Origin: Pseudomonadota bacterium
Lineage (GTDB): Bacteria; Pseudomonadota; Gammaproteobacteria; Steroidobacterales; Steroidobacteraceae
Direction of reading: 5' to 3'
Length of the DNA: 52,922 nucleotides
NCBI GenBank assembly: GCA_021787615.1
Contig: JAJYLP010000012.1
Span: forward strand, 1 to 52,922
A program made the position numbers and the translations under genes. This document shows, piece after piece, positions 17,241 through 52,922 of this stretch. Every line of letters begins with the position of its first letter. The first letter of the stretch is position 1. Below the pieces are notes generated by a model. That model saw only the letters and a program-made list of their open reading frames with translations, had not been told where the DNA came from and ran no database searches.

Positions 17241-18132
17241 GTGGAAACCGACGCCATCTTTCCGCTCATTGCTTCGAGCTGGTACAGCGCCGCGCCGTCG
17301 AGCCGCCTGGCGGCCGCCCCTGTGGCCTGCCGCGTCCTGGACCACGACATCGTGCTGTTTCGCGATGCGGCCGGGACCGCGCACGCGCTGCTCGACAGAT
17401 GCTGTCACCGCGGCGTCAGGCTGTCGCTGGGCACGGTGAGCGGCGATCCGCTCGCGTGCGGCTATCACGGCTGGCGCTACGACGGCGCGGGCTGCTGCGT
17501 GCACATTCCCTCGCTGACGCAGGGTGCGCAGCCGCGCCAGCGCGCGCGGGTCAGGAGCTTCCCGTGTGTCGAGCAGGATGCGTATCTCTGGGTGTGGACC
17601 GGCGCCGAGGCGCCGCCGGCGCGGATCGAGCGGATGGACGAGTTCATCTGGCAGCAGGGGACGCTGCCCATGCAGTGCGCCGCGACGCTCGGCATCGAGA
17701 ACAATCTCGACTGGTGTCATCCGGTGTTCGCGCATCCCTGGACGCACGGACAGTTCTTCCAACCACCAGCTGGCCGGCTTCACCGAGCACACCTACGAAA
17801 CCCGCGTGACCGACATCATGCACCTCGTGCCGACCGGAACGGATACCTGCCGCCTCGAGTGGCTGAATGCGATCATGCCCTCGAGCACGCCGCTCGCAGG
17901 CGTGCGGTTGCGCTGGAGCGAGGAGGAATCGACGGTCTTCATACAGGATCGCGTCCTGCTCGAGAGCGCGCAGCGCGCGTACGACCGTGCAGGCGGCGAA
18001 TTCGAGAACAGCGTGGGCGCCGACACTTCCACTCTGCTTGCGCGGCGCATCATCGCGCTCGCCGCGCCGCAGCGCTGGCCGAGCGCGCGAGGCACGCTTG
18101 CTCACCGGCGCGTCATCGCCGTTCGCGCCTAG
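17241..18132 (+). pseudogene. Rieske-type aromatic-ring-hydroxylating oxygenase alpha subunit, frameshifted
   Basis: The first frame (GTG 17241) encodes a Rieske [2Fe-2S] site: CCHRG (CxH) and, 17 residues later, CGYHGW (CxxH), then the mononuclear iron site ENNLDWCHPVFAHPW (D-x2-H-x4-H). After GQFF, near 17760, the homologous sequence continues in the +1 frame: NHQLAGFTEHTYETRV, IMHLVPTG, RLEWLNAIMP, VFIQDRVLLESAQRAY, ending at TAG 18132. One extra base (or two missing) in TTCTTCCAACCACC explains this. Unshifted, the protein would be ~297 residues, a plausible length for this compact family. The substrate is unknown. Either a recent pseudogene or a sequencing error, since the reading frame is otherwise well kept on both sides. 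Confidence 0.75.
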
Positions 18133-37760: not shown

Positions 37761-38861
37761 TTACGTCTTGGCGGCCGACGATGCCAGGCGTTGCAGGAAT
37801 CGCTGGATCGGGGCCGGAAGGCCGAGCGCGCCCGGCGCGCTGACGTGGTACCAGGCGTGGCGCGCCGGATCCGGCGCGGCGTCATGGTCCGAACAATGAG
37901 CCAGAAGCGGCGTGATGACAAGATCGAAATGCGTCAAGGCGTGCTCGATCGCCTCGAGCGGACGCGCTCGGTGCGCCGTGCCGAGCATGCGGCCGAGGTA
38001 GTTCTCGGCCGCCGCGGCGCTGTCGAATTCCGGCAGGCACCACAGGCCTCCCCAGAGGCCGCGCTCGGCGCGGCGCTCAAGCAGCACTGCGCCGTCGGTG
38101 CGCTGTGCGGCAAGCATGAACACCCGCCGCAGCCGACGCTCGGGCCGGCGCTTCGGCGCCGGCAGCTCGTGCTGCCGGCCGGCGCGGCGGGCGAGACAGG
38201 TCTGCGACAGCGGACAGTCCGGGCACGCCGGGTTGCGGCGCGTGCACACGGTCGCGCCGAGATCCATGACGGCCTGCGTGTACACCTCGATGTGTTGGGT
38301 CGGAGTGCACGCCTCGGACAGCGCCCATAGCCGCTCGACGGTGCCCCGCTGCCCCGGGTCGCCCTCCACCCCGAAATATCGGCACAACACGCGGCGCACG
38401 TTGCCGTCGAGGATCGGAAAGCGCTCGCCGCGGGCGAGCGCGAGGATCGCCCCCGCGGTCGAGCGCCCGATTCCGGGCAGCGCGGCCACGGCAGCGAAGG
38501 CTCCCGGGAAACGCCCGTCGTGCTCATCACGGATCCGAATCGCGGCACGGTGCAGGTTACGCGCGCGGGCGTAGTAGCCGAGACCCGACCAGACGTGCAG
38601 CACCTCATCGAGCGGTGCATCCGCGAGCGCGCCAATGTTGGGAAAGCGCCGCATGAACCGCTCGTAGTACGGAATGACCGTGTTCACCTGGGTCTGCTGC
38701 AGCATGATCTCCGACACCCAGATGCGGTAGGGGCTGCGGTCGCGCTGCCAGGGCAGATCGTGCCGTCCGCGGCATCCGTGCCACTTGATGAGCGCGCGCG
38801 CGACGCGCACGCCGGCTTTCGCGGCGCCGGACGGGGCCGGTGCCCTTCGTTTGGAACTCAC
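37761..38861 (-). CDS. mutY: Adenine DNA glycosylase MutY
   Basis: 366 residues. It removes adenine mispaired with 8-oxoguanine. The catalytic region is DLPWQRDRSPYRIWVSEIMLQQTQVNTVIPYYERF with the active-site Glu in SEIMLQQTQ; helix-hairpin-helix LPGIGRSTAGAILA; Asp in LDGNVRRVLCR; the [4Fe-4S] loop C-x6-C-x2-C-x5-C (CTRRNPACPDCPLSQTC). The C-terminal NUDIX-like domain (VLLERRAERGLWGGLWCLPEF, LTHFDL) reads 8-oxoG. GTG 38861 overlaps the stop of the AsmA-like gene (GTGA); no family sequence lies upstream of it. Confidence 0.94.
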   Translation of the reverse strand: MSSKRRAPAPSGAAKAGVRVARALIKWHGCRGRHDLPWQRDRSPYRIWVSEIMLQQTQVNTVIPYYERFMRRFPNIGALADAPLDEVLHVWSGLGYYARARNLHRAAIRIRDEHDGRFPGAFAAVAALPGIGRSTAGAILALARGERFPILDGNVRRVLCRYFGVEGDPGQRGTVERLWALSEACTPTQHIEVYTQAVMDLGATVCTRRNPACPDCPLSQTCLARRAGRQHELPAPKRRPERRLRRVFMLAAQRTDGAVLLERRAERGLWGGLWCLPEFDSAAAAENYLGRMLGTAHRARPLEAIEHALTHFDLVITPLLAHCSDHDAAPDPARHAWYHVSAPGALGLPAPIQRFLQRLASSAAKT

Positions 38862-40021
38862 TGCACTTGCAGCCGCACGTCGCGCATCGCCGTGCCGCCG
38901 TAGGTCGCGCGGTTGACGGTGAGCGTGCCCTGGGCCCGAAGGGCACGCAGCATCGCGAGCGGCAGCTTCAGGGGCTTGGGATGCTTGCGCGCGGGCGGCA
39001 GGTAGTTGCCGAAGTTGATTCGGTTCGCGTGCAGGTCGAAGGTCCAGCCCGCCGCGGCGCCGCCGGAGCGTTGCGCCCACCCGGTGAGCGTGGTCGCATC
39101 GAGCCGGGCGGTGAGCGGCGCGATGCGCAGCGCGCCGCCCCGCAGCCGCCAGCGCCCCGACAGCGACAGGGCGCCGAGCGCGGCGGGATCCTTCGGCAGG
39201 CGCATCTTCAGGCCCCACTGGCCGATCAGCCCCCGCACCGACGGCACGGTGAGGGCAATGGCTCCCGCGGCGCGCGGTCGCCCGCCCGCATCGGCGAACT
39301 GCAGTGCGCCGGACAATGCGGCGCTCGCCACCGTCAGTGTCCAGTGTGGTGCGGCAAGATCGAGCGGCGTGGTCTGCGCGCGCAGGTCCTTGGCGTCGAA
39401 GCGGATCGGCACGCCGGCAGGCGGCAGCTTCGGTGCCTGCAGGATGAAGCGCGTGCGCAGCGAAAACGGCCGGCCCGGATGCAGGGCCCCCACATGCAGC
39501 TGCCAGCGCCGCAGACGGACCGTTCCGCTCGCGGCGGCGAACTCGAGTGTCGCATCCTCCAGGATCAGCCCGCCGATCGGCGGAGCGGGACTCGCAGCGG
39601 GTCCGGATGCCGCAGAGCTCACCAGCAGATGCTGCCAGTTGCCGACGCCCTGGGCGTTGCGCCACAGATGGATGTCCGCGCCGTTCACCCGGATCGTGCC
39701 GAGCTCGATGCGCCGATGCAGCAGCAGCGGCAGCAGCCGCACCGGGACGCGCGCCGAGCGCCACTCGAGCAGGTCCGGCCCGCGCATGCCGCTCGGGTTG
39801 CCGAGGCGCGCCGCGCCGATGCCGAGCGTGAGCCAGGGATACCAGCCGAGGCGCAGGTGGCCCTCGATCACGAACGGCCGACCGGTGTAGCGGCTCACCA
39901 GCCGCTCGGCCTCGCCCCGGTAGTCATTGGGATTGATGAGCCGGGTGGCGATGAAAGCCGCCAGCACGATCAGCAACAGCAGGGCGGCGAGAATGCCGAG
40001 GCTCCAGCGCAGCGCTTTCAT
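38858..40021 (-). CDS. AsmA-family protein
   Basis: 387 residues. One N-terminal membrane anchor (LGILAALLLLIVLAAFIATRLI, residues 8-29) is followed by the AsmA start NPNDYRGEAERLVSRYTGRPFVIEGHLRLGWYPWLTLGIGAARLGN. The rest is beta-rich with repeats such as LEWRSARVPVRLLPLLLHRRIELGTIRVNGADIHL. AsmA-like proteins belong to the bridge-like lipid-transfer group spanning the periplasm; this is a short version (E. coli AsmA has 617). ATG 40021 lies directly after the TAG of the PRC-barrel lipoprotein gene, with no intervening base, and the stop overlaps mutY. A shared envelope role with the lipoprotein is inference. Confidence 0.85.
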   Translation of the reverse strand: MKALRWSLGILAALLLLIVLAAFIATRLINPNDYRGEAERLVSRYTGRPFVIEGHLRLGWYPWLTLGIGAARLGNPSGMRGPDLLEWRSARVPVRLLPLLLHRRIELGTIRVNGADIHLWRNAQGVGNWQHLLVSSAASGPAASPAPPIGGLILEDATLEFAAASGTVRLRRWQLHVGALHPGRPFSLRTRFILQAPKLPPAGVPIRFDAKDLRAQTTPLDLAAPHWTLTVASAALSGALQFADAGGRPRAAGAIALTVPSVRGLIGQWGLKMRLPKDPAALGALSLSGRWRLRGGALRIAPLTARLDATTLTGWAQRSGGAAAGWTFDLHANRINFGNYLPPARKHPKPLKLPLAMLRALRAQGTLTVNRATYGGTAMRDVRLQVQ

Positions 40022-40588
40022 CTACAGGTTCATGCTCGGTCGCTCTCGCGAGCGCGTCGTCGGATCGACCGGGAGGAACGGCGCCTCGCCCAAGCGCGAC
40101 CAGTAGGCATCAGCCGTCGCGCTCCAGCCCTGCGCGTCGAGCTGCGGCCAGTCATCGGGCGCGAAGCCCGGCGCGGCCGTCAATTCCTTGCTCTTGAGCA
40201 CGAGCGCGCCGCCGTGCACGTGCTTGATCGCGAGGTTCCAGGGAATGGGGATCAGGGTGCCGGAGGCGCCACCTGCGCCGCTCAGCACCACGATGAGGTG
40301 GGAGGCCCGACCGTCGCTGCTGAAGACGATGTCGGCCACCGCCCCCAGCCGCTCGCCCGCGCGGGAGCGCACCGGCAGCCCGATCAGGGTCGAGGCGCGC
40401 TGCGCGGCGGTGGGCAGCGGCGCAGCGGGGATGCTCGGTGCGGCGGGCGCGCTTGCGGTGGTGCCGGAGGCACCGCCCCCGGGCATGAAGTCCGCGTTCT
40501 GCTGGCTGCAGGCGCCGAGCGCTACCGCCGACAGCGCGCACAGCGCCGGCGCCACGATCCTCTTTATCCGAACAGCTCGTCTCACCAT
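40022..40588 (-). CDS. PRC-barrel domain lipoprotein
   Basis: 188 residues. Residues 1-26 form a lipoprotein signal with lipobox LGAC and Cys27 as the lipidated residue. An Ala/Pro/Ser spacer follows (to ~60). Residues ~65-140 are a PRC-barrel: STLIGLPVRSRAGERLGAVADIVFSSDGRASHLIVVLSG, then TLIPIPWNLAIKHVHGGALVLKS. PRC barrels bind protein or RNA partners; the partner here is unknown. The start at ATG 40588 overlaps the last seven bases of hemF (an alternative GTG at 40585 would overlap by GTGA). It joins the haem operon to asmA and mutY. Confidence 0.75.
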   Translation of the reverse strand: MVRRAVRIKRIVAPALCALSAVALGACSQQNADFMPGGGASGTTASAPAAPSIPAAPLPTAAQRASTLIGLPVRSRAGERLGAVADIVFSSDGRASHLIVVLSGAGGASGTLIPIPWNLAIKHVHGGALVLKSKELTAAPGFAPDDWPQLDAQGWSATADAYWSRLGEAPFLPVDPTTRSRERPSMNL

Positions 40589-41415
40589 CTGACCAGCGGT
40601 GGCAGACTCATCAGGTAGGCCTCAGGGTCCGCGTCGGTCTGAAAACCGAACCGCGTGCCCCGATCATAGACCAGGTTGAACTCCACGTAGCGTCCCCGCT
40701 TGTAGAGGAGCTTCTCGCGCGCCGCCTCGTCGTAGGGGGTGTCCCGGCGGCGCGCCACCAGGGCCGGATAGACCCCGAGGAAGGCCTCGCCCACCTGTCG
40801 CACGAAAGCGAAATCGGCCTGCGGATCGTGGCCCGCGAGCTCATCGAAGAAGATGCCGCCCGCGCCGCGCGGCTCATGGCGGTGGGGCAGGTAGAAGTAC
40901 CGGTCGCACCAGGCCTTGAACTGCTCGTACGCGTCCGGGCGATATGTGTCGCAGGCGCGGCGCAGCGCGGCGTGGAACTCGGCCGTGTCCTCCTCGAACG
41001 GGAACGTCGGCGTCAGGTCCGAGCCGCCCCCGAACCAGCCGCGGCTGGTGTGCAGGTAGCGCAGGTTCATGTGCACCGTGGGCACGTAAGGGTTCGCCAT
41101 GTGGGCCACGAGCGAGATGCCGCAGGCGAGGAACTTCCCGTCTGACTCCGCCGCTCCCGGGATCTGCGCGCGCGCCTGCTCGGAGAAGACGCCCCAGACG
41201 TGGCTGAAGTTGACACCGACTTTCTCGAACACCTGCCCGCGCAGCAGCCGCGATTGCCCGCCGCCTTCGAGCCGGTGGGCGCTCGGGCGGCTCCAGCTGC
41301 GCGCCTGGAAGCGCTCGGCGTGCTCGAACGCCTCGAAAACCGCGCAGATGCGATCCTGCAGATCGCGGAAGTAGTCCGCGGCCGCCTGCGCGAGCGGTGC
41401 GCGGATCTCGCTCAC
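40582..41415 (-). CDS. hemF: Oxygen-dependent coproporphyrinogen III oxidase HemF
   Basis: 277 residues, slightly shorter than the ~300 of E. coli. It decarboxylates coproporphyrinogen III to protoporphyrinogen IX using O2. Signatures: LEGGGQSRLLRGQVFEKVGVNFSHVWG, NPYVPTVHMNLRYLHTSRGWFGGGSDLTPTF, KAWCDRYFYLPHRHEPRGAGGIFFDEL, and KRGRYVEFNLVYDRGTRFGFQTDADPEAYLMSLPP. The use of the oxygen-dependent enzyme supports an aerobic organism. GTG 41415 overlaps the hemE stop as GTGA. Last haem gene of the run; protoporphyrinogen oxidase and ferrochelatase are not here. Confidence 0.95.
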   Translation of the reverse strand: MSEIRAPLAQAAADYFRDLQDRICAVFEAFEHAERFQARSWSRPSAHRLEGGGQSRLLRGQVFEKVGVNFSHVWGVFSEQARAQIPGAAESDGKFLACGISLVAHMANPYVPTVHMNLRYLHTSRGWFGGGSDLTPTFPFEEDTAEFHAALRRACDTYRPDAYEQFKAWCDRYFYLPHRHEPRGAGGIFFDELAGHDPQADFAFVRQVGEAFLGVYPALVARRRDTPYDEAAREKLLYKRGRYVEFNLVYDRGTRFGFQTDADPEAYLMSLPPLVRW

Positions 41416-42458
41416 CTCGCACCTGCGGCTCGGGCGGAGCGCTCGTGCACCACATCGACCAGCCGCGCCACCGCCTCGGGGTCGGTATGCGGCCAGATGC
41501 CGTGGCCCAGGTTGAAGATGTGTCCCGGCCGGCCGCCGGCCTCGTGCAAGACGCGGCCGGCCTCCTGCTCGAGCACCTCGGGCGGCGCGAACAGCGCCGC
41601 GGGATCGAGATTGCCCTGCACGGCCTTCTGCCCGCCCAACAGGTGGCGCACCGCGCCGAGCGGGGTGCGCCAGTCGACGCCGATCACATCCGCCTCGAGT
41701 GTTGCGAGGCGCTCGAGCAGCGCGCTGCCCTGGTTGAGGTAGTAGATGAGCGGCACGCCGCAGGAGCGCAGGGCCGCAAGCGTGCGCCGCGCGGCGCGCA
41801 GTGCGAACTGCTCGAACTGCGGCGGGGCGAGCAGCCCGCCCCAGGACTCGAACAGCATCAGCGCCTGGGCGCCCGCCGTGGCCTGCGCGGCGAGATAGGC
41901 GGCCATGGCATCGGCGAGATGCTCGAGCAGCCGCTCGGCCGCCTCAGGGTCTGAGTAAAGAAATGCGCGCGCGGTCTCGAACTCCTTCGACGGCCGTCCG
42001 CCGACGAGGTAGCAGAAGAGCGTGAACGGGCCGCCGGCGAAGCCGATGAGCGGCACGTCGCGCGGCGCGGCCGCGCGGATCAGCCGGATGCTCTCGAGCA
42101 CGAACGGCACGTCGCGCTCGGGCAAGAGCGGCCGCAGCGCCTCGATGGCCGCATCGCTGCGGATCGGCTCGCGCACCACCGGGCCGGGCTCGAACGTCAG
42201 CTCGACGCCCATGCCCTGCAGCGGCGTCATGATGTCGCTGAAGAGAATGGCCGCATCGAGGGCAAAGCGCCGCAGCGGCTGCAGCGTCACTTCCGCGGCG
42301 AGCTGCGGCGTGCGGGTCAGCGTCTCGAACGAGACTTTGGCGCGCACCTTGCGGTACTCCGGCAGATAGCGTCCCGCCTGGCGCATGATCCAGATGGGCG
42401 TGTAGGGCACGGGCTCGCGCCGGCAGGCGGCGAGAAAGACCGACGGGCCGGCACTCAT
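41412..42458 (-). CDS. hemE: Uroporphyrinogen decarboxylase HemE
   Basis: 348 residues. It removes four carboxyls from uroporphyrinogen III to give coproporphyrinogen III. Signatures: PVPYTPIWIMRQAGRYLPEYRKVRAK with the substrate-binding arginines, LDAAILFSDIMTPLQGMGVELTFEPGPVV, GFAGGPFTLFCYLVGG, ALMLFESWGGLLAP, VIGVDWRTPLG and VQGNLDPAALFAP. ATG 42458 overlaps the hemB stop (ATGA), and its own stop overlaps the hemF start. Confidence 0.96.
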   Translation of the reverse strand: MSAGPSVFLAACRREPVPYTPIWIMRQAGRYLPEYRKVRAKVSFETLTRTPQLAAEVTLQPLRRFALDAAILFSDIMTPLQGMGVELTFEPGPVVREPIRSDAAIEALRPLLPERDVPFVLESIRLIRAAAPRDVPLIGFAGGPFTLFCYLVGGRPSKEFETARAFLYSDPEAAERLLEHLADAMAAYLAAQATAGAQALMLFESWGGLLAPPQFEQFALRAARRTLAALRSCGVPLIYYLNQGSALLERLATLEADVIGVDWRTPLGAVRHLLGGQKAVQGNLDPAALFAPPEVLEQEAGRVLHEAGGRPGHIFNLGHGIWPHTDPEAVARLVDVVHERSARAAGAR

Positions 42459-43432
42459 GCGCCGAGCCAGCGCGCCACCTGCGGCGCGTAGTAGGTGATG
42501 ATCAGGTCGGCGCCGGCGCGATGAATGCCGATGAGGGTCTCCATGGCCGCCGCGCGCTCATCGATCCAGCCGCGCTCGGCGGCCGCCTTGATCAGGCTGA
42601 ACTCCCCGCTCACCTGGTAGGCCACCACCGGCACCCGCACCGCATCGCGCACCTGGCGGATGATGTCGAGATAGGGGCCGGCGGGCTTGACCATGACCAG
42701 GTCGGCGCCTTCCTCGACGTCGAGCAACACCTCGCGCAGCGCTTCGCGGCCGTTGGCCGGATCCATCTGATAGCTGCGCCGGTCGCCGAAGGCGGGGGCG
42801 GATTCGGCCGCCTCGCGGAACGGACCGTAGAACGCCGAGGCGTACTTCGCCGCATACGACACGATGGGCGTCATGACGAGCCCGTCGCGGTCGAGCAGCC
42901 GGCGGATGGCCTCGATGCGTCCGTCCATCATGTCGCTCGGCGCGACCGCATCGGCGCCGGCGCGCGCGTAGTTGAGCGCGACCTGGGCGAGCGTCTGCAC
43001 CGAGGAGTCGTTGTCGATCACCCCGCCCGGCAGCACGTGGCCGCAATGGCCGTGGTCGGTCGCCCCGCACAGGCACACATCGGCCCACACCAGCAGCCGC
43101 GGGCAAGCCTCCTTGATCGCGCGGATCGCCTCGGCGGCGAGTCCGTGCGGATCGAGCGCGGCGCTCGCCCGCTCGTCCTTGTGCGCCGGGGCGGCGAACA
43201 GCAGCACCGCCGGCAGGCCCGCCTGCTCGGCCATGCGCGCCTCCTTGACCGCCTCGTCGACCGACAGCTGAGAGATGCCCGGCATGCTCGCCACCGGATG
43301 GCGCACGCCCGCGCCGGGCACGACGAACAGGGGATAGATCAGCTGATCGGGCGTGAGGCGCGTCTCGCGCACCATGCGCCGCCACTGATCGGACTGGCGG
43401 GTGCGCCGCGGCCTGACGGAAGGGAAGTTCAT
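42455..43432 (-). CDS. hemB: Delta-aminolevulinic acid dehydratase HemB (zinc type)
   Basis: 325 residues. It condenses two 5-aminolevulinates into porphobilinogen. The three-cysteine zinc site is intact in WADVCLCGATDHGHCG (C-x-C-x7-C), so this is a zinc-dependent enzyme rather than the Mg-type with aspartates. The two Schiff-base lysines are in SYAAKYASAFYGPFREA and LVMVKPAGPYLDII. APSDMMDGRIEAIR and VPVVAYQVSGEFSL also match. ATG 43432 overlaps the hemD stop by ATGA. Confidence 0.96.
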   Translation of the reverse strand: MNFPSVRPRRTRQSDQWRRMVRETRLTPDQLIYPLFVVPGAGVRHPVASMPGISQLSVDEAVKEARMAEQAGLPAVLLFAAPAHKDERASAALDPHGLAAEAIRAIKEACPRLLVWADVCLCGATDHGHCGHVLPGGVIDNDSSVQTLAQVALNYARAGADAVAPSDMMDGRIEAIRRLLDRDGLVMTPIVSYAAKYASAFYGPFREAAESAPAFGDRRSYQMDPANGREALREVLLDVEEGADLVMVKPAGPYLDIIRQVRDAVRVPVVAYQVSGEFSLIKAAAERGWIDERAAAMETLIGIHRAGADLIITYYAPQVARWLGA

Positions 43433-44247
43433 GTTTCGAGCCTCTTTGCGGCGCGACGCGCCGTTGCATGTTCGGGTTGCGCGCTTGGCGGTCCTGGTTG
43501 ATTTGCGTGCAACAGCGCCTCGCAGGCGAGCGCCAGGCCGCGCAGCGTGTGATCCGACGCGACGACGGGTGTTACGGCGCGCGCCTCGAGTTCGTGCGCG
43601 GTGGTCGGACCGATGGCGAGCGCGGGAGCGTCTGCGAGCAGCCGTTCAAAGTCCGCGTCGCCGAGCGCGCGCTCCAGCTCGATCACCGCCGAGGGGCTCG
43701 CGAAGGTCACGGCGCTGATGCCGCCGCGCGAGATCCAGCTGCGGCAGTCGGCGACATCGAGCGCGGCGCCCACGGTGCGATAGGCGGCGAAGCGCACGAC
43801 CTCGGCGCCGAGCCGCTCGAGCCCTTCCGATAGCGTGGACAGTGCCCGGGAGCTCGCCGGATAGAGCACGCGTCGGCCGCCCACGCCGGCCTCGGCAAGC
43901 GGGCCGAGCAGTCCCTCGGCGCCGCTGCCGTGGCCGGTGAGATCCACCGGCCAGCCCCGCTCGCGCAGCGTCTCGGCCGTGGAGGGGCCCACGGCAGCGA
44001 TGCGGGCGTGCGCGGGCTTCGCCAGGGCGTCAGCCAACACCTCGACCGCGTGTGCGCTGGTGAACACGATCCAATCGAACGTCCCGATCGCCCGGCGATG
44101 CATTTCCCACTCGGCCGGATCTGCAGGCTCGATGCCGACCACCGGCCAATGCAGCACGGGCAGGCCGAGGCGCGCGAGCTCGGCGCTCAGACCGCTGCCC
44201 GGCGGCTCGGCGCGCGTCACGACCACGGGCCGGGCGAGATCACTCAC
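43429..44247 (-). CDS. hemD: Uroporphyrinogen-III synthase HemD
   Basis: 272 residues. It cyclises hydroxymethylbilane to uroporphyrinogen III. As usual the sequence is poorly conserved, but the two-lobed pattern is clear: RPVVVTRAEPPGSGLSAELARLG at the start, FDWIVFTSAHAVEVLADAL, RIAAVGPSTAETLRERGW, RRVLYPASSRALSTLSEGLERLGAEVVRFAAYRTV, ISAVTFASPSAVIELERAL and LAIGPTTAHELEARAV. GTG 44247 overlaps the hemC stop (GTGA). Position between hemC and hemB confirms it. Confidence 0.92.
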   Translation of the reverse strand: MSDLARPVVVTRAEPPGSGLSAELARLGLPVLHWPVVGIEPADPAEWEMHRRAIGTFDWIVFTSAHAVEVLADALAKPAHARIAAVGPSTAETLRERGWPVDLTGHGSGAEGLLGPLAEAGVGGRRVLYPASSRALSTLSEGLERLGAEVVRFAAYRTVGAALDVADCRSWISRGGISAVTFASPSAVIELERALGDADFERLLADAPALAIGPTTAHELEARAVTPVVASDHTLRGLALACEALLHANQPGPPSAQPEHATARRAAKRLET

Positions 44248-45197
44248 GGGTTCGAGGCCTGCTGCGCCGCGCGCTGCGCGGCGATGAGCCGGTCGGCGCC
44301 CTGCGCGAGGAGCTCTCCGGCAAGACGCTCGCCGAGCGCGCGCGCCGCGTCGGCTTCGGCCGCGCACTGACCCGTGGCGGCGAGGCTGCTCGTCCCGTCG
44401 AGCGAGCACACGACGGCCCGCATGTCGATCCGGGTGTCCTCGAGCTCAGCGAGCGCGCCGAGCGGGACCTGGCAACCCCCTTCGATGCGCTGCAGCAGGG
44501 CGCGCTCGGCCGTGGTGGCGAGACGCGTGGCGGGGTGATCGAGCCGGCTCAGCCAGCGGCGGGTGTTGGAATCCGCGGTGCGCGCGCAGATGCCGATCGC
44601 GCCCTGTGAGACCGCCGGCGGAAAGTCCGCCGGAGACAGCCGTTCGCAGATGCGTTTCTCGAGCCCGAGACGCTTCAGACCCGCCGCCGCGAGCACGATG
44701 GCGTCGTAATCGCCGCGCTCGAGCCGCTCGATGCGCGTGGGAACGTTGCCGCGCAGCTCATGGAGCTCGAGGTCCGGCCGCACTCGCGCGAGGAACGCGC
44801 GCCGGCGCAGGCTGCTCGTGCCGACCCGCGCGCCGCGCGGCAGCGCCGCGAGGGTTGCGCCAGCACGGCTGACCAGCGCATCGCGCGGGTCCTCCCGCTC
44901 GAGCACGGCCGCGAGCGCCAGCCCCGGCTCGAGCTCGGTGGGCAGATCCTTCAGGCTGTGCACGGCGAGGTCGACGCGTTCCTCGAGCAGCGCGCGGTCG
45001 AGCTCCTTGGTGAAGAAGGCGCGGCCGCGCACCGCCCACAGCGGCACCTGCGTCTGCAGGTCGCCCGAGGTCACGATGGGCACGAGCTCGACCTGCGGCG
45101 CATCCGGCAGGGCGCGCAGCAGCGACTCGACGTGGCGCGCCTGCCACAGTGCGAGCGCGGAGGCGCGGGTGCCGATGCGCAGGGTGTCTGCGGTCAT
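44244..45197 (-). CDS. hemC: Porphobilinogen deaminase HemC
   Basis: 317 residues. It links four porphobilinogens into hydroxymethylbilane. Cys242 in RIEGGCQVPLGA carries the dipyrromethane cofactor, the same number as in E. coli. TLRIGTRASALALWQA, AFFTKELDRALLEERVDLAVHSLKDLPTEL, VGTSSLRRRAFL and LRGNVPTRIERLERGDYDAIVLAAAGLKRL match. ATG 45197 overlaps the stop of the OmpR-type regulator gene by ATGA, which means that translation of hemC is likely coupled to that of a response regulator. Confidence 0.96.
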   Translation of the reverse strand: MTADTLRIGTRASALALWQARHVESLLRALPDAPQVELVPIVTSGDLQTQVPLWAVRGRAFFTKELDRALLEERVDLAVHSLKDLPTELEPGLALAAVLEREDPRDALVSRAGATLAALPRGARVGTSSLRRRAFLARVRPDLELHELRGNVPTRIERLERGDYDAIVLAAAGLKRLGLEKRICERLSPADFPPAVSQGAIGICARTADSNTRRWLSRLDHPATRLATTAERALLQRIEGGCQVPLGALAELEDTRIDMRAVVCSLDGTSSLAATGQCAAEADAARALGERLAGELLAQGADRLIAAQRAAQQASNP

Positions 45198-45919
45198 GAT
45201 TCGATCTCGATCAGAAAGCGGTAGCCCACGCCCCAGACGGTGAGGAAGTGGCGCGGGTTGGCCGGGTCGCGCTCGAAGCGCCGCCGCAGCCGCAGGATGA
45301 AATTGTCCACGGTGCGCGTGGAGGGAAACACGTCGTAGCCCCAAACGCGCTCGAGCAGATCCTCGCGCGAGACGATCTCCCCAGGGTGCTCGGCGAGCAC
45401 CTTCAGGATCATCGCCTCCTTCTCGGTGAGCTCCTGCGCGAGCCCGTTCCAGGCGCGGGCGCGGAAGGCGCGGAAGTCCACCTCGTTGTCGCCGAAGCGC
45501 AGCACCGCGGTCTCGGCCGCGGCGCTGTGATACCAATCCCAGCGCCTGAGGATAGCCCGCACCCGCAGCAGCAGCTCCTTCAGATGAAAGGGCTTGGGCA
45601 GGTAGTCATCGCCGCCGACCTCCAGACCCCGCACCCGGTCGGCGGGATCGCCGCGCGCGGTCAGAAACAACACCGGCGTGTTGTCGCCGCGCTCGCGCAG
45701 CGTGCGGCACACCGTGAACCCGTCGAGCTCGGGCAGCATCACATCGAGCAGCACCAGGCCGTAGGAGGCGCCGGCGAGCGCCTCGAGCGCCGAGCGCCCG
45801 TCGCCCACGTGATCGACGTCGTAGCCCTCGGCGCGCAGGTTCTCGACCACGCCGGCGGCGAGGTGCGGGTCGTCCTCGACCACCAGGATGCGGCTCGCCG
45901 TCTCGCCCGGGGAGTTCAT
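45194..45919 (-). CDS. OmpR-family response regulator embedded in the hem operon
   Basis: 241 residues. The receiver domain (~9-122) keeps all key residues: acidic pair in VVEDD, phospho-acceptor Asp59 in VLLDVMLP, Thr in FLTARGD, and Lys in LPKPF. The winged-helix output (~140-238) reads LTEKEAMILKVLAEHPGEIVSREDLLERVWGYDVFPSTRTVDNFILRLRRRFE, VWGVGYRFL. It overlaps the kinase stop at its start and the hemC start at its end, both ATGA. Targets are unknown; autoregulation of the hem operon is a natural guess but only a guess. Confidence 0.93.
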   Translation of the reverse strand: MNSPGETASRILVVEDDPHLAAGVVENLRAEGYDVDHVGDGRSALEALAGASYGLVLLDVMLPELDGFTVCRTLRERGDNTPVLFLTARGDPADRVRGLEVGGDDYLPKPFHLKELLLRVRAILRRWDWYHSAAAETAVLRFGDNEVDFRAFRARAWNGLAQELTEKEAMILKVLAEHPGEIVSREDLLERVWGYDVFPSTRTVDNFILRLRRRFERDPANPRHFLTVWGVGYRFLIEIES

Positions 45920-47010
45920 GCCGGCTCCTGCGGCGCGGCCGGCCAGACCAGCACGAAGCGCGAGCCCTGGCCGGCGCCGCCGCTCTCGGCGCTTACTTTC
46001 CCTCCCATCAGCTGCATCATGCGTCGCACGATGTACAGCCCCAGTCCCGTGCCGTGATAGCTGCCGCCGCCGGGCTGCAGGCGCGTGAACTTCTCGAACA
46101 GGCGCGTCGCATCGGCGGGCCGGAAGCCCACGCCGGTGTCGCGCACCGTCAGCTCCACCGTCGCGTCGGCGCGCCGTCCGCTGAACTCGATGCTGCCGCC
46201 GCCGACCGGCGTGACCGCCGCGAGCGCATTGTCGAGCAGGTTGCGCAGGATGACATCGAGCGCGAGCGGATCGGCGAGCACCACCAGTCCGGGATCGATC
46301 TCGACCTTCAGGGCGATGTGCGCCTGCGCGGCGCGCTCCTCCGCCGAGGCGCTGACGCGGCGCACGGCGTTCGCGAGGTCGACGGGTTCGCGGCGCAGCT
46401 CGACTCGGCCGCGGTCGAGGCGCGCGCTCTCGAGGATGCGGCTCACCATCCCTTCCATGCGTGCGAGGTCCGCGAGCATGCGCTCGGTGAGCACGCGCGT
46501 CTGCTCGGCGGAAGCCGGGCGCAGCGTGAGGGTCTCAAGCGAGAGCTGCAGACTCGCGAGCGGTGTCTTGAACTGATGGGAGACCATCGCCAGGAAGTTG
46601 TCCTGCTCGATCATCACCAGGGCCTCGGCCCGCAGCGCGCGCGCGATGACCGCGATGCAGGCCAACAGGGCGAGCAGAAAGAACGAGCCCTCCCAGGCGT
46701 ACTGCTTGATGCGCAGGTGCTCCTCGTTGAGCAGGCTCTGCTCGATCACAGGACTCGGCCGGGCCCCGTCCGGCGTGAGCTGCACGGAGGGCAACAGCGC
46801 CTGCACGCGCACGACCGGGACGCCCGCCGCGAGCAGCGCGCGCGCGGCGGCGGCCTGCTGCCGGTAGGCCCGCTGCAGCTCGGCGACCTTCTCCACCGCG
46901 TAGCGGTGCTGGTCGTAGATCCACCAGACCACCTGCACCGTGCACACGAGCACGAGCACCATGACGGTGATCTGCAGGATGCGCGGGACTCGGGTCGCGC
47001 GCAGGCTCAT
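45916..47010 (-). CDS. Membrane sensor histidine kinase embedded in the hem operon
   Basis: 364 residues. TM1 ~11-32 (ILQITVMVLVLVCTVQVVWWIY), a small periplasmic domain of ~75 residues (33-107, with a coiled, Gln/Ala-rich start), and TM2 ~108-127. No HAMP domain is evident. The dimerisation helix has His145 in MVSHQFKTPLASL (phospho-acceptor, HQ-x-KTP type); the ATP domain has N box RNLLDNAL, G1 DTGVGF, F box LFEKFTR and G2 GTGLGLYI. The periplasmic domain resembles nothing I know; it has no cysteine pair or CXXCH, and only two histidines (His35 and His98), both close to the membrane. ATG 47010 overlaps the hemL stop. The signal is unknown; haem, a precursor, or envelope redox state are possible. 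Confidence 0.92.
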   Translation of the reverse strand: MSLRATRVPRILQITVMVLVLVCTVQVVWWIYDQHRYAVEKVAELQRAYRQQAAAARALLAAGVPVVRVQALLPSVQLTPDGARPSPVIEQSLLNEEHLRIKQYAWEGSFFLLALLACIAVIARALRAEALVMIEQDNFLAMVSHQFKTPLASLQLSLETLTLRPASAEQTRVLTERMLADLARMEGMVSRILESARLDRGRVELRREPVDLANAVRRVSASAEERAAQAHIALKVEIDPGLVVLADPLALDVILRNLLDNALAAVTPVGGGSIEFSGRRADATVELTVRDTGVGFRPADATRLFEKFTRLQPGGGSYHGTGLGLYIVRRMMQLMGGKVSAESGGAGQGSRFVLVWPAAPQEPA

Positions 47011-48296
47011 GCGGCGGCCGCGAGTGCCTGCTCGAGGCCTCGGGCGAGTGTGTCGAGATCCGCTTCCCGGTGCGCCAGCGACAGGAAGCAGGCCTCGTAG
47101 GCCGAGGGCGGGAAGTAGATGTCCTGGGCGAGCAGCGCGTGGAACAGGCGGCCGTAGCGCGCGCTCGCCGCCTCGCCGAGCGGCGCGGCCGTGCGCGGCG
47201 CGCCGGCCTCGTGCAGCGACAGCCAGAACAGCGATCCGGCGCGCACCAGATGCACCGGGAATGGCGCTCGAGAGAGCACCGGCCGCAGCGCCGCTTCGGC
47301 CTTGGCGCCGAGCGTCTCGAGCCGCTGCCAGCCGTTCTCGCGCGCCAGCACATCGAGCGTGGCGATGCCGCTCGCCATCGCCACGGGATTGCCCGAGAGC
47401 GTGCCTGCCTGATAGGTGTCCCCGTCGGGCGCAAGCCGCGCCATGATTTCGCGCGGCCCCGCGAAGGCCCCGACCGGCAGCCCGCCGCCGATCACCTTGC
47501 CGAAGGTGGCCAGGTCGGGCGTGATGCCGAGCCGCTCGGCCGCGCCGCCGCGCGCGAGCCGGAACCCCGAGATGACCTCGTCGAAAATCAACAGCGCGCC
47601 ATGCCGGCGGGTGAGGGCCCGCAGGCGCTCGAGAAACTCGCGCCGCTGCGGCAGCAGCCCGTGATTGGCGGGCAGCGGCTCGATGATGACCGCGGCGATG
47701 CGCGCGCCTTCGCTCGAGAGCTGCCGCTCGAGCGCGGCCTCGTCATCGAGCGGCAGCACCCGGGTGCAGGCGGTGAACGGCTCCGGCACGCCGGCCGAGG
47801 ACGGGCGGCCGAAGGTGGCGAGTCCGGAGCCGGCGGCCACCAGCAGATGATCGGCGTGGCCGTGATAGCAGCCGGAGAACTTCACGATGAGATCGCGTCC
47901 CGTGGCCGCGCGGGCCAGGCGGATGGCGCTCATCACCGCCTCGGTGCCCGAGGAGACGAAGCGCACCTGCTCGATGCCGGGATAGGCGGCCACGACGCGC
48001 TCGGCGAGCTCGATTTCCCCGGCGCACGGGGCGCCGAAAGTCGTGCCTTGCGCGGCCGCGGCCGTGATGGCGCGAATGACCTCCGGATGCGCATGGCCGA
48101 GGATGAGCGGTCCCCAGGAGCCGACGAAGTCGAGGTAGCGCCGCCCGTCGGCATCGGTCAGGTACTGGCCCTCGCCGCGCGCGATGAACAGCGGGGTGCC
48201 GCCGACGGCCCGGAAGGCCCGAACGGGCGAGTTAACGCCGCCGGGAATGACCGCGCGGGCGCGCGCATAGAGCTGTTCTGACTGGGGATGGCTCAT
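47007..48296 (-). CDS. hemL: Glutamate-1-semialdehyde 2,1-aminomutase HemL
   Basis: 429 residues. It turns glutamate-1-semialdehyde into 5-aminolevulinate with pyridoxal phosphate. Lys267 in ATFGKVIGGGLPVGAF is the PLP lysine. YLTDADGRRYLDFVGSWGPLILGHAHP, RFVSSGTEAVMSAIRLARAATGRD, KFSGCYHGHADHLLV and LIFDEVISGFR are classic. ATG 48296 overlaps the hemA stop (ATGA). With HemA it forms the C5 route to 5-aminolevulinate. Confidence 0.97.
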   Translation of the reverse strand: MSHPQSEQLYARARAVIPGGVNSPVRAFRAVGGTPLFIARGEGQYLTDADGRRYLDFVGSWGPLILGHAHPEVIRAITAAAAQGTTFGAPCAGEIELAERVVAAYPGIEQVRFVSSGTEAVMSAIRLARAATGRDLIVKFSGCYHGHADHLLVAAGSGLATFGRPSSAGVPEPFTACTRVLPLDDEAALERQLSSEGARIAAVIIEPLPANHGLLPQRREFLERLRALTRRHGALLIFDEVISGFRLARGGAAERLGITPDLATFGKVIGGGLPVGAFAGPREIMARLAPDGDTYQAGTLSGNPVAMASGIATLDVLARENGWQRLETLGAKAEAALRPVLSRAPFPVHLVRAGSLFWLSLHEAGAPRTAAPLGEAASARYGRLFHALLAQDIYFPPSAYEACFLSLAHREADLDTLARGLEQALAAAA

Positions 48297-49609
48297 GAGC
48301 TGTACGGTAGGGGTTTTTCAGCCGGCGGCGCATCGCTCGAGTCCGGCTGCCGGCGCAGGTGTGCTTCGCGGAAGAACGCCTCGAGCGCGTCCGTGGTGGT
48401 GTGGGGAGCCGCGGCGCGCAGGCCCGAGATGGGCAGGTGCACCAGGCTGTGCGCGACCCGCTCGGTGAGGCGTCGTACCGCCTCGCGCTGCGCCGGATCG
48501 AGCGTGTGCAGCTGAGCGCCGAGCGTCCGCTCGGCCTCCTCGGCGGCGATGCGCTCGAACGCCTCGCGCAGCTCGGCCAGGCGGGGGCCGATGGCGCGGC
48601 TCGCCATCTCGGCGCGCAGGCGGGTCAGCTGCTCGTCGATGGCCGCGCGCACCGGGGCGAGGCGCAGCAGCTCGTTGAGGCGGTGTTCCTCGACCGCCTG
48701 GACCAGATCATCCATGCCTATGCGATCGATGCGTGCGCGCCGCGCGGCTTGCGGCTCGAGGTTCGGCGGCACACCGAAGTCGATGGCGAGCGGCCGGCGG
48801 GTGGTGAGTGCGGCCAACCGCTCGAGCGTTGGTGCGCCGAGCACGGGCGTGCCGCCGCCGGCGGCGAGCACGAGGCCCGCGACCGGCTCGGGCCGCTCGC
48901 GGAAATCTTCGAGCGCGACGGCGCGGCCGTTGACTTCGGTGGCGAAGGCCTCGGCCGCCGCCGCGGTCCGGTTGACGATGAGCAGCGGCACGCCGGCGCG
49001 GGCGAGGGCGAGCCCGCAGCGGCGCGTCATGGGGGAGACCCCGATCAGGGCCACCGGCGGGGGTGGCGCGCCGAGGTGCTTCAGCATGCGCTCGACGGCC
49101 AGGTCCGCAAGCGATGGGGGGTGAACGCCCGAGCGCAGCCGCTGCACGCGGTTGGCCATGCCGAGCGCCTCACCGAGCAATCGGTTGAGCAGCGGGCCGC
49201 TGGTGCCCGCTTCCCGCGCGCTCCCCCAGGCGAGGCGCAGCTGCGCGGCGATTTCGCGCTCGCCGGCTTGTGCCGAGTCCAGTCCGCAGGCGACCAGCAG
49301 AACATGCTCGATGGCCGACTCGCCCGCCCAGGCGCGCAGCAGCCTCGGCGCATGGCCGGGCTGCGGGGCCCTTCCAGTGAGCTGCTCGAGCACCTCGGCG
49401 CGCAGGTCCCCGGCCGGCAGCCCGTCGCCCGTGGCGTAGACCAGCTCCACCCGGTTGCAGGTGCCGAGGTAGAGGAGCTCCGAGACGCCGAGGGCCGAGC
49501 GCAGCGCCGGCAGGCGCTGCGGCAGGTTCGTGCGATCGATGGACAGGCGCGCGAGCTCGTCTACCCCGGCATGCCGGTACGAGAGGCCTACAACGCCGAT
49601 CTGTTCCAT
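48293..49609 (-). CDS. hemA: Glutamyl-tRNA reductase HemA (somewhat divergent)
   Basis: 438 residues. It reduces glutamyl-tRNA to glutamate-1-semialdehyde. The catalytic Cys is in LGTCNRVELVYA; the conserved His and GLDS are in EHVLLVACGLDSAQAGE. Two sites depart from the family: the usual GE-x-QILGQVK is GEREIAAQLRLAW, and the dinucleotide loop normally reading GxGxMG is IGVSPMTRRCG before LLIVNRT. The C-terminal dimerisation domain (IDEQLTRLRAEMASRAIGPRLAELREAFERIA, LTERVAHSLVHLP) is intact. ATG 49609 was chosen (MEQIGVVGLSYRHAG); ATG 49636 is possible. First of the overlapping hem genes, about 100 bp after a NarL-type regulator gene on the same strand. Confidence 0.93.
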   Translation of the reverse strand: MEQIGVVGLSYRHAGVDELARLSIDRTNLPQRLPALRSALGVSELLYLGTCNRVELVYATGDGLPAGDLRAEVLEQLTGRAPQPGHAPRLLRAWAGESAIEHVLLVACGLDSAQAGEREIAAQLRLAWGSAREAGTSGPLLNRLLGEALGMANRVQRLRSGVHPPSLADLAVERMLKHLGAPPPPVALIGVSPMTRRCGLALARAGVPLLIVNRTAAAAEAFATEVNGRAVALEDFRERPEPVAGLVLAAGGGTPVLGAPTLERLAALTTRRPLAIDFGVPPNLEPQAARRARIDRIGMDDLVQAVEEHRLNELLRLAPVRAAIDEQLTRLRAEMASRAIGPRLAELREAFERIAAEEAERTLGAQLHTLDPAQREAVRRLTERVAHSLVHLPISGLRAAAPHTTTDALEAFFREAHLRRQPDSSDAPPAEKPLPYSS

Positions 49610-49709
49610 AGGGGTGAGGACACCACGAAAGCCCATCTGAGGTGTCACAGAATGGTCATCGCCCGGCACGCCGCGGCGGCCCCGGCCACGCGGCGCGTGA
49701 AGCGTTTCG

Positions 49710-50345
49710 TTACAGCCGGATCAGCCCGCGCTTGTGCGCCACCGCCACCGCCTCGGTGCGGCTGATGGCGTCGAGCTTCGTGAGGATCGATTTCACGTGG
49801 GTCTTGGCCGTGCCCTCGGTGATCGAGAGCCGCCGCGCGATGTCCTTGTTGCTGCGGCCCTGGGCGACGAGCTCGAGTACGTCGAGCTCGCGCTCGGTCA
49901 GGCTCGGCTTAGCCAAGCGCTGCAGCGCCTTGGCGGCGACCGTCGAGGAGGTGTAGGGGCGGTCCTCGCTCACCGCGCGGATCGCCGAGAGAATCTCCGG
50001 CCGCGGCGCATCCTTCAGGATGTAGCCCTTGGCGCCGTGCGAGAGGCACTGGAAGATGTCCTCGTCGCCGTCGTAGGTCGTCATGATGAGCAGGCGCGCC
50101 TTCGGGTTGATCTCCATCACCCGCTGCACGACGGCAAGCCCGTCGCGCTTGGGCATGCGCAGGTCGAGCACCATCACATCGGGCTGGTGCTGCTCGTAGA
50201 GCGCGACCGCCGCATCGCCGTCGCCGGCCTCCGCCACCACTTCCATGTCGGGCTGCTGGTTGACCATCGCCGCGAGCCCATCGCGCACCACGGGGTGATC
50301 GTCCGCGAGAATCACCCGGATCTTTTTGTGCATCTCGGCCGCCAT
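49710..50345 (-). CDS. NarL/LuxR-family response regulator
   Basis: 211 residues. The receiver domain has the acidic pair in VILADDHPVVRDGL, Asp61 in MVLDLRMPKRDG, and Lys in YILKDAP. The LuxR-type helix-turn-helix (~148-205) is LTERELDVLELVAQGRSNKDIARRLSITEGTAKTHVKSILTKL. ATG 50345 (MAAEMHKKIRVIL) shares a base with the stop of the kinase gene (TGATG), so the pair is coupled. No ligand or target is shown, but hemA lies just downstream on the same strand, making haem or respiration-related genes possible targets. Confidence 0.93.
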   Translation of the reverse strand: MAAEMHKKIRVILADDHPVVRDGLAAMVNQQPDMEVVAEAGDGDAAVALYEQHQPDVMVLDLRMPKRDGLAVVQRVMEINPKARLLIMTTYDGDEDIFQCLSHGAKGYILKDAPRPEILSAIRAVSEDRPYTSSTVAAKALQRLAKPSLTERELDVLELVAQGRSNKDIARRLSITEGTAKTHVKSILTKLDAISRTEAVAVAHKRGLIRL

Positions 50346-52162
50346 CAGGTTCTTCGCTTCTGCATGAGCACGCTTACGCGGGTGCCGGACCCTGGGCGGC
50401 TCTCGATGCGCCACTCGCCGCCGATATCCGTGGCGCGCTGGCGCATGCTGGTCAGGCCGAATCCTTGGCGCTCGTGCCGCTCCGGACTCTGGCCCATGCC
50501 GAGGCCGTCATCCTCGATGGCCATCACCCAGTGAGCGTCTTCGTCCGTCATGGTGATGCGTATGGTGCTCGGCCGGGCGTGGCGCACGGCGTTGCTCACC
50601 GCTTCCTGGGCGATGCGCAGCAGCTCGTGCTCCTGCTCGGGTCTGAGGCCGGTGTTGATTTCGTCGCCAGTGAAGGTGCAGGTCACTCCGCCCGGAACGG
50701 TGGAGCGCTCGGCGAGCTGGCGCAGCGCGAGCTCGAGCCCAGTGCGGCGGGTTTGATCCAGCCTGAGCGCCATCACCGAGCGGCGCGCCTCGGCGAGTCC
50801 GTCGCGCGCCAGATCCCGGATGCGCGTCAGCACGATCGCCAGGTTCGAGTTCTTATTCTTGCACGGCGGGTCTTCCTCGACCGCCCCCAACTGCATCAGG
50901 ATGCCGGTGAACGCCTGCGCCAGTCCGTCATGGATCTCCTGGCCGATGCGCGCCCGCTCGACGAGCACCGCGGCTTCCTTTGCCTGATACGCGAGGCGCG
51001 TCAGTTGTACCGCGAGGGTCGCCTGCTGGGCGAGCGCCACCAGCAGCTCGCTGTGCGGCACGTCCTCGGCCTTGCGCCGGAAGCGCAGGATCAGAAAGCC
51101 GACATTGCGCGAGCCGAACACCAGCGGATAGACCACCTTGCCGACGTAGCCCTCGCGCCGGTCGAAGGCGAGCATGCCGGGCCAGAACTCCTGGTGCTGC
51201 TGTGCGATGTCGAGATACATCGGCTCGTGCGGCTGGCCGAAGCGGTTGCCGAACGGGGAGCCCGTCGGCACGCTGATCGGGTAGGGCGGCTCCTCGAGCT
51301 TGCCCTCGCGCACGTGCGCGGCGATGCGCCACTCCTGTAGGCTGTCGCGCGAGACCACGACGGCGCCCGAGGCGGCATTGAACTGGCGGGTGGCCTCGAG
51401 GAGCAGGTGGCCGAGGAAACCGTTCAGGTCGGGCTCGCTCGCCAGGCGCTCGAGGTTGCCGCGGATCACGGCGTTGGCCTTGGCGAGCTCCGTCGCCCGC
51501 TCGTCGGCGGCGCGCTCGCGCTCGCGGCGCATGTCATCGAGGAGGCGCTGGCGGTGCAGGGCCGCGCCGATCACGCTCGCGGCGGTCTCGAGCGCGGCCA
51601 GCTCGGCGGCCTCGATGGCGCGGCGCTGGCGGGTATTGTCGAGACCCACGATGCCGATGAACTCTCCGGCCACGACGATCGGCACCACGGCCTTGCTCTT
51701 CGTGCCGATGCCCTCGAAGCGCGCTGCCCCGGTGCAGCCTCCGCCTGCGGCGCCGGGGTTGATGCAGACGCTGCGGCCGGCGCGCAGCTCGGCGGAGACG
51801 GAGGAGATTTCGCGCTCGTCACAGGCGCGCGCCGCCGCATCATCAATGTGCGGCGGCACGCCCTCGGCGGTCCACTCTCCCACCACTACGAGCAGGGGCT
51901 CGCCCCCGGGGCCGCTGCGGGCGAGCATCACGTTCACCCGGTCCACATGCGCCGCCTCGCCGATCAGTCGCAAGACCTTCGGGATCGCGCCGCGCACATC
52001 CGGGGCCTCGAGCAGCATCCGGCTCGCCTTGGCGGAGGCGGCAAGCAGCCCTTCCTGGCGGTGGAGCGACTCGTTGATATGGGTGAGCTCCTCGGTACAG
52101 GGAATGATGTCTTCCGCCGATGCCAGGCGGGGAGTGAGGCCTGATTCGGCCGCTGTGCTCAT
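50345..52162 (-). CDS. Soluble NarX/DevS-like histidine kinase with two GAF domains
   Basis: 605 residues with no membrane segment, so it senses something inside the cell. Two GAF domains are suggested at ~55-205 (ending AVVPIVVAGEFIGIVGLDNTRQR) and ~245-390 (VVYPLVFGSRNVGFLILRFRR), followed by a HisKA_3 helix with His411 in RARIGQEIHDGLAQAFTGILMQL and an ATPase domain (IAQEAVSNAVRHA, IEDDGLGMG, GFGLTSMRQRATDIGG). GAF domains in this class can bind haem, flavin or Fe-S clusters, but I see no sure haem ligand; the first GAF contains cysteines Cys133 and Cys143 that might bind a cofactor. ATG 52162 follows a 400-bp leader region. Confidence 0.9.
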   Translation of the reverse strand: MSTAAESGLTPRLASAEDIIPCTEELTHINESLHRQEGLLAASAKASRMLLEAPDVRGAIPKVLRLIGEAAHVDRVNVMLARSGPGGEPLLVVVGEWTAEGVPPHIDDAAARACDEREISSVSAELRAGRSVCINPGAAGGGCTGAARFEGIGTKSKAVVPIVVAGEFIGIVGLDNTRQRRAIEAAELAALETAASVIGAALHRQRLLDDMRRERERAADERATELAKANAVIRGNLERLASEPDLNGFLGHLLLEATRQFNAASGAVVVSRDSLQEWRIAAHVREGKLEEPPYPISVPTGSPFGNRFGQPHEPMYLDIAQQHQEFWPGMLAFDRREGYVGKVVYPLVFGSRNVGFLILRFRRKAEDVPHSELLVALAQQATLAVQLTRLAYQAKEAAVLVERARIGQEIHDGLAQAFTGILMQLGAVEEDPPCKNKNSNLAIVLTRIRDLARDGLAEARRSVMALRLDQTRRTGLELALRQLAERSTVPGGVTCTFTGDEINTGLRPEQEHELLRIAQEAVSNAVRHARPSTIRITMTDEDAHWVMAIEDDGLGMGQSPERHERQGFGLTSMRQRATDIGGEWRIESRPGSGTRVSVLMQKRRT

Positions 52163-52584: not shown

Positions 52585-52922
<338 letters not shown>

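Follow-up and report, generated by a model that had tools for sequence, protein, structure and literature searches.

Why should a complete two-component system be built into a haem-biosynthesis operon, and what would it respond to there? The question is raised by a 52,922-nt stretch of gammaproteobacterial DNA from the family Steroidobacteraceae (contig JAJYLP010000012.1 of assembly GCA_021787615.1; hereafter the window), in which open reading frames and Pfam domains place a histidine kinase and an OmpR-type regulator between hemL and hemC on the minus strand. Read in the direction of transcription, with all coordinates on that strand, the region starts with a hem-box-like direct repeat, TGACCATTCTGTGACA (49643–49658), 33 nt ahead of the ATG with which hemA begins (49609). 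Then come hemA for glutamyl-tRNA reductase (48293–49609), hemL for glutamate-1-semialdehyde aminomutase (47007–48296), a HemK-like sensor histidine kinase of 364 aa (45916–47010), and a HemR-like OmpR-family response regulator of 241 aa (45194–45919), the last two assigned from their reading frames, Pfam domains and positions in the kinase and regulator trees. They are followed by hemC for hydroxymethylbilane synthase (44244–45197), hemD for uroporphyrinogen-III synthase (43429–44247), hemB for porphobilinogen synthase (42455–43432), hemE for uroporphyrinogen decarboxylase (41412–42458), and hemF for oxygen-dependent coproporphyrinogen oxidase (40582–41415). The enzyme genes were identified with both Pfam and NCBIfam, except hemD, for which Pfam was used; the window's hemA falls under its NCBIfam equivalog cut-off (177.3 versus 209.55 bits).

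All eight junctions from hemA through hemF are 4-nt ATGA or GTGA overlaps, so that the arrangement given in the preliminary description is borne out by reading frames and Pfam. These overlaps suggest translational coupling of the signalling genes with the pathway enzymes. That description went on to say that the proteins must be made in step, but an overlap does not fix stoichiometry; and the hemL/kinase overlap, present in the window, is replaced by gaps of 10–27 nt in the related loci L045–L048, L053, and L059. Around the operon, genes for PRC-barrel, AsmA-family, and MutY-type proteins lie close behind hemF (37761–40588, minus strand), separated by few nucleotides or none in some members of the genus. 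Immediately upstream of hemA (49710–52162, minus strand) lies another two-component pair, made up of a GAF-domain HisKA_3 kinase and a NarL/LuxR-type regulator; it is so placed in part of the genus, and is otherwise more distant or inverted downstream. The sole tRNA gene found in the window is a tRNA-Phe (52585–52660, plus strand).

Haem-responsive two-component systems of Gram-positive bacteria (HssRS, HrrSA, and ChrSA) answer external haem and act on its export or breakdown; set beside them by description, the window pair shares two-component control of haem homeostasis. The preliminary description knew of no tetrapyrrole-dedicated system of the present layout. One has in fact been described, HemKR of Leptospira, discovered through a haem-requiring mutant (PMC2266917). 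The L. interrogans pair is reported to be flanked by hemL and hemE and to share a transcript with both, the L. biflexa pair does not adjoin hemL, and for Bdellovibrio a linkage is stated without the data being shown (PMC2266917); one Leptospira operon runs hemA, hemC/D, hemB, hemL, kinase, regulator, hemE (PMC7567364). Phosphorylated HemR is reported to bind TGACA-N6-TGACA and is regarded as an activator of hemA; on exposure to 5-aminolevulinic acid (ALA), HemK dephosphorylates HemR and the system is shut down (PMC11426443). In an open-access library, outside which most subscription journals lie, HemKR appears by name for Leptospira only, apart from the one Bdellovibrio remark.

By these published descriptions, the window pair resembles HemKR (Hklep/Rrlep in L. 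biflexa, LB014/LB015 in L. interrogans) in its HisKA kinase with two helices and a short loop, in its OmpR-type regulator, and in its position directly after hemL as in L. interrogans (PMC2266917, PMC7567364). The window thus holds a membrane HisKA kinase with an adjoining OmpR-family regulator, linkage to hemL, and, before hemA, the Leptospira box with one mismatch (PMC11426443). It differs in that the pair is followed by hemC, whereas the L. interrogans pair is followed by hemE; in a kinase loop of ∼72 residues as compared to 32 in L. biflexa; in a first half-site reading TGACC where Leptospira has TGACA; and in its gammaproteobacterial host.

The kinase matches the Pfam families HisKA (2.2e-13) and HATPase_c (1e-22), with a predicted phospho-site at H145 and a phosphatase Thr assigned by position, four residues on, at T149; the regulator matches Response_reg (4.3e-29) and Trans_reg_C (3.7e-25), with a predicted phospho-site at D59. 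The periplasmic stretch of ∼75 residues first noted in the kinase comes, read by eye, to ∼72 residues (32–103) between two membrane helices. Both helices appear in an AlphaFold model (mean pLDDT 78; five rows), which predicts long helices running through TM1 and TM2 on either side of a tip, making the loop a helical hairpin whose tip is small and two-stranded. Conservation lies mostly elsewhere. Across an alignment of 32 kinases, mean pairwise identity is 0.50 in the loop and 0.79 in TM2 and its motif (only the first 12 residues, at 0.47, score below the loop), and the maxima fall at Q26, W30, R100, and W106-E107-G108-x-F110-F111, the last being a WEGxFF motif at residues 106–111. The loops of these 32 kinases contain no conserved His, Cys, or Met, and two conserved Tyr, Y37 (26 of 32) and Y49 (31 of 32). 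Loop length, judged by eye in hem-linked kinases of one branch (L206–L209 and L211–L213), ranges from ∼10 residues (L206–L209) to well over 100 (L211).

An EG..F motif just N-terminal to the cytoplasmic part marks all 16 gammaproteobacterial hem-linked kinases and seven of nine from Bacteroidota, the other two reading E-A in place of EG. It occurs in 5 of 13 other kinases from a regulator-based scan and in none of 28 generic kinases of the class. For this comparison, 5 of 46 comparison kinases were dropped because they had no recognisable H-box.

The pair is a fixture of its genus and patchy around it. A kinase orthologue is present in 33 of the 36 other genus genomes; the remaining three are 62–75% complete and likewise gave no hemL match. 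Across the 33 genus loci compared, the order hemA-hemL-kinase-regulator-hemC is unbroken as far as the contigs reach. Within the family, the kinase was found in 5 of 25 sampled genera (150 genomes). In other families of the order, 2 of 23 genomes gave matches well above generic kinases, and their loci (L064 and L065, from one such family) read hemA-hemC-hemD-hemB-hemL-kinase-regulator-hemE. Across the class, 370 genomes gave 32 matches at E ≤ 1e-40, all of which except the window's own begin only at profile position 88 and cover mainly the cytoplasmic part.

The arrangement extends beyond the phylum. A scan of genomes with the window regulator, from which 80 loci were kept, included a Sphingobacteriaceae metagenome-assembled genome (L073) with the same order as L064 and L065. 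Among Bacteroidota, 120 of 148 genomes had a hemL match, and among the best 30 of these hemL loci nine carried such a kinase downstream of hemL, one of them in L073's own genome. Longer Bacteroidota stretches gave hemL-kinase-regulator in eight of eight, with hemE further along, directly or after a gap, in seven. Conservation of the neighbourhood across families had been proposed as a check, and the pair does follow hemL both in two families and among Bacteroidota. In a kinase tree of 66 rows, 16 gammaproteobacterial and nine Bacteroidota hem-linked kinases share a branch (support 99/97) with five kinases that do not adjoin hem genes, the same five that carry EG..F in the regulator-based scan, and with one unrelated, very long-branch kinase. 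The matching regulators likewise fall in one branch (99 rows, support 96/93), together with four others not known to be hem-linked. One of the branch's kinase-regulator pairs lies away from hem genes on a 4.3-kb contig of a planctomycete (L069/L274 in genome G428).

What is new here is the hem-box-like repeat before hemA and its co-occurrence with the kinase. The window repeat has the form TGACN-N6-TGACA, its first half (TGACC) departing from the Leptospira consensus at 1 of 10 positions. This form occurs upstream of hemA in 24 of 28 kinase-bearing gammaproteobacterial loci, as compared to 0.025 expected from shuffles. With at most one mismatch to the Leptospira box tolerated, the count is 25 of 28 (the other three, L045–L047, have two mismatches) versus none of 18 kinase-less loci of the same family and order, these being the hemA loci that matched among 26 genomes queried; the difference gives a Fisher p of 4.7e-10, to be read with the relatedness of the loci in mind and not as a count of independent events. 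When 26 loci are aligned on the box, mean conservation is 0.91 within it, 0.46 upstream, and 0.60 downstream. The box sits where a regulator overlapping a putative −35 element could act.

Bacteroidota show the same association. We sampled 30 genomes (handles G434–G473 with a hemL match, minus five examined before), found hemA in all 30, and could read upstream of it in 29, one locus (L305) having no upstream DNA. An exact box precedes hemA in three of the 29, exactly the three with the kinase (Fisher p 2.7e-4). In these three, the kinase is full length (E ≤ 5e-104, the rest of the 30 standing at 1.3e-65 or weaker), carries the GEG motif, and lies far from hemA. Matches of the looser pattern E[GA]..F to a PAS-like cytoplasmic stretch in L315, L320, and L323 were left uncounted. 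The five examined before (G437, G442, G447, G468, and G472) all have the kinase, with a box ahead of either hemA or hemL; in G437, G447, and G442, an exact box also precedes hemL. The G442 hemL locus (L259) has no kinase within its 8-kb stretch, and a kinase of the family is on another contig. Of 15 selected genomes, 12 yielded 13 hemA loci, of which six had an exact box, three had one mismatch, three (Bacteroidota or planctomycete loci) had two, and a second hemA copy had no box; shuffles predicted 0.003 exact boxes. The exact TGACA-N6-TGACA occurs in L064 as well as in several Bacteroidota, and in the planctomycete G428 hemA is preceded by a box with two mismatches and falls close to the hemA of kinase-bearing Gammaproteobacteria.

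All well-placed hem boxes read TGACA along the direction of transcription. The window's own genome contains 15 matches to the general pattern, as compared to five to the reversed pattern. Judged by eye from surrounding reading frames, only two sites looked well placed, the one before hemA and an array near pst-like genes; neither the 12 of 15 matches so read nor the pst-like locus showed a well-placed box at another haem gene. The array consists of tandem 11-bp TGACA-type repeats, recognised by eye between a porin-like and a PstB-like gene (contig C150, 17253–17367; L237–L240); these are probably Pho boxes. The only other TGAC-N7-TGACA match in the window (17403–17418, minus strand) has no recognised haem gene behind it.

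The history of hemA itself bears on how the pair arrived. A tree of 54 hemA proteins places those of kinase-bearing Gammaproteobacteria, the window's included, with those of 10 of 15 kinase-bearing Bacteroidota and the planctomycete, and apart from those of kinase-less members of the same family and order; for this tree, 12 of 26 kinase-less Bacteroidota loci were sampled and 11 kept. A single grouping of all gammaproteobacterial hemA is rejected (AU p 0.0007), a value to be taken with caution as many rows differ in letter make-up. In its protein tree, hemA tracks the kinase and regulator and not the species, and a joint arrival of hemA with the regulatory pair by horizontal transfer is probable. 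The remaining five kinase-bearing Bacteroidota have the other kind of hemA and yet an exact box, so that the association of operator with kinase holds on both hemA backgrounds.

We consider it likely that the window pair is a HemKR-type feedback switch controlling its own haem-biosynthesis operon. Dedication of the pair to tetrapyrrole synthesis is supported by comparative genomics, because the pair is conserved in hem operons and the repeat precedes hemA in kinase-bearing and not in kinase-less relatives. Several other explanations were weighed. The pair might sense redox, oxygen, iron, or envelope state, with the hem genes one target among many and the operon merely a convenient location; the five same-branch kinases away from hem genes and the GAF-domain sensor pair immediately upstream of hemA fit this idea, but even genomes with an unlinked kinase have the box before hemA, and of the 15 genomic matches, judged by eye, hemA and the pst array were the only ones that looked well placed, so that we think this account unlikely. 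We hold it highly improbable that the repeat is a PhoB site by which the hem operon answers to phosphate. The pair does share its broad kinase and regulator superfamilies with PhoR/PhoB, the Pho box half-site TGTCA is TGACA on the other strand, and the same genome has its 11-bp array of such repeats beside a PstB-like gene; but the well-placed hem boxes all read TGACA along transcription, and the box is missing in the 18 kinase-less relatives, which are expected to have PhoB. NCBIfam scores also fall far short of the cut-offs (regulator 171.4 versus 296.2 bits for PhoB; kinase 127.5 versus 334.2 bits for PhoR), and the genome's best HisKA score belongs to another kinase, on contig C150 with the pst-like genes.

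Direct binding of haem by the periplasmic loop of the kinase is highly improbable as well. The loop's 72 residues and its two conserved Tyr, possible haem ligands, would allow it; the poor conservation of the loop, its lack of a conserved His, Cys, or Met, and its reduction to ∼10 residues in some hem-linked homologues all count against it, as does the report that the Leptospira loop can be exchanged without loss of function while the membrane part is not dispensable (PMC2266917). Finally, the pair may owe its place in the hem operon to chance and have nothing to do with haem. Its patchiness in the family agrees with this, but the same post-hemL position recurs in two families, in Bacteroidota, and in L. 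interrogans, as far as the latter is described (PMC2266917), and the kinase co-occurs with the hemA operator. Absence from the hem operons of relatives, which the preliminary description would have taken as a sign of chance insertion, is not what the genus shows, and the conserved gene order contradicts such an insertion, to which we give almost no credence.

In the HemKR-type reading that we favor, the kinase would phosphorylate the regulator, as the domains of both imply, and the phosphorylated regulator would bind the TGACN-N6-TGACA site just before hemA, a candidate site recognised by its conservation. Once bound, it would set transcription of hemA-hemL-kinase-regulator-hemC-hemD-hemB-hemE-hemF and thus also regulate its own synthesis. 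By analogy with Leptospira, the phosphorylated form may activate hemA, and abundant tetrapyrrole precursors may turn the kinase into a phosphatase, bringing the operon down. Sensing probably takes place within or at the membrane, by way of the TM1/TM2 region and the WEGxFF motif and not through a haem-binding periplasmic domain, because kinase conservation peaks near TM1/TM2 and because the Leptospira kinase, as described, tolerates replacement of its loop and requires its membrane part (PMC2266917). Of the two ideas first put forward for this locus, feedback on haem supply is accordingly the best reading of the conserved hem linkage and the box, but periplasmic haem sensing does not stand.

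More broadly, the HemKR-like pair looks like a shared haem thermostat and not a one-off. We put forward tentatively, at somewhat less than even confidence, that HemKR may be a cross-phylum, horizontally mobile cassette (kinase, regulator, hem-box, and often its own hemA type) governing entry to the C5 tetrapyrrole pathway, and that its kinases may form a class of membrane-embedded sensors with (W/G)EGxxF at the start of TM2 and loops, from ∼10 to well over 100 residues, that carry no signal. With pair and operator present in a gammaproteobacterial lineage and across Bacteroidota, a wide comparison narrows where the signal is read, and a pathway gene is seen to move together with its regulator. 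The carriers include at least one named isolate, Pinibacter aurantiacus (L068/L273), which makes the HemK signal testable outside Leptospira.
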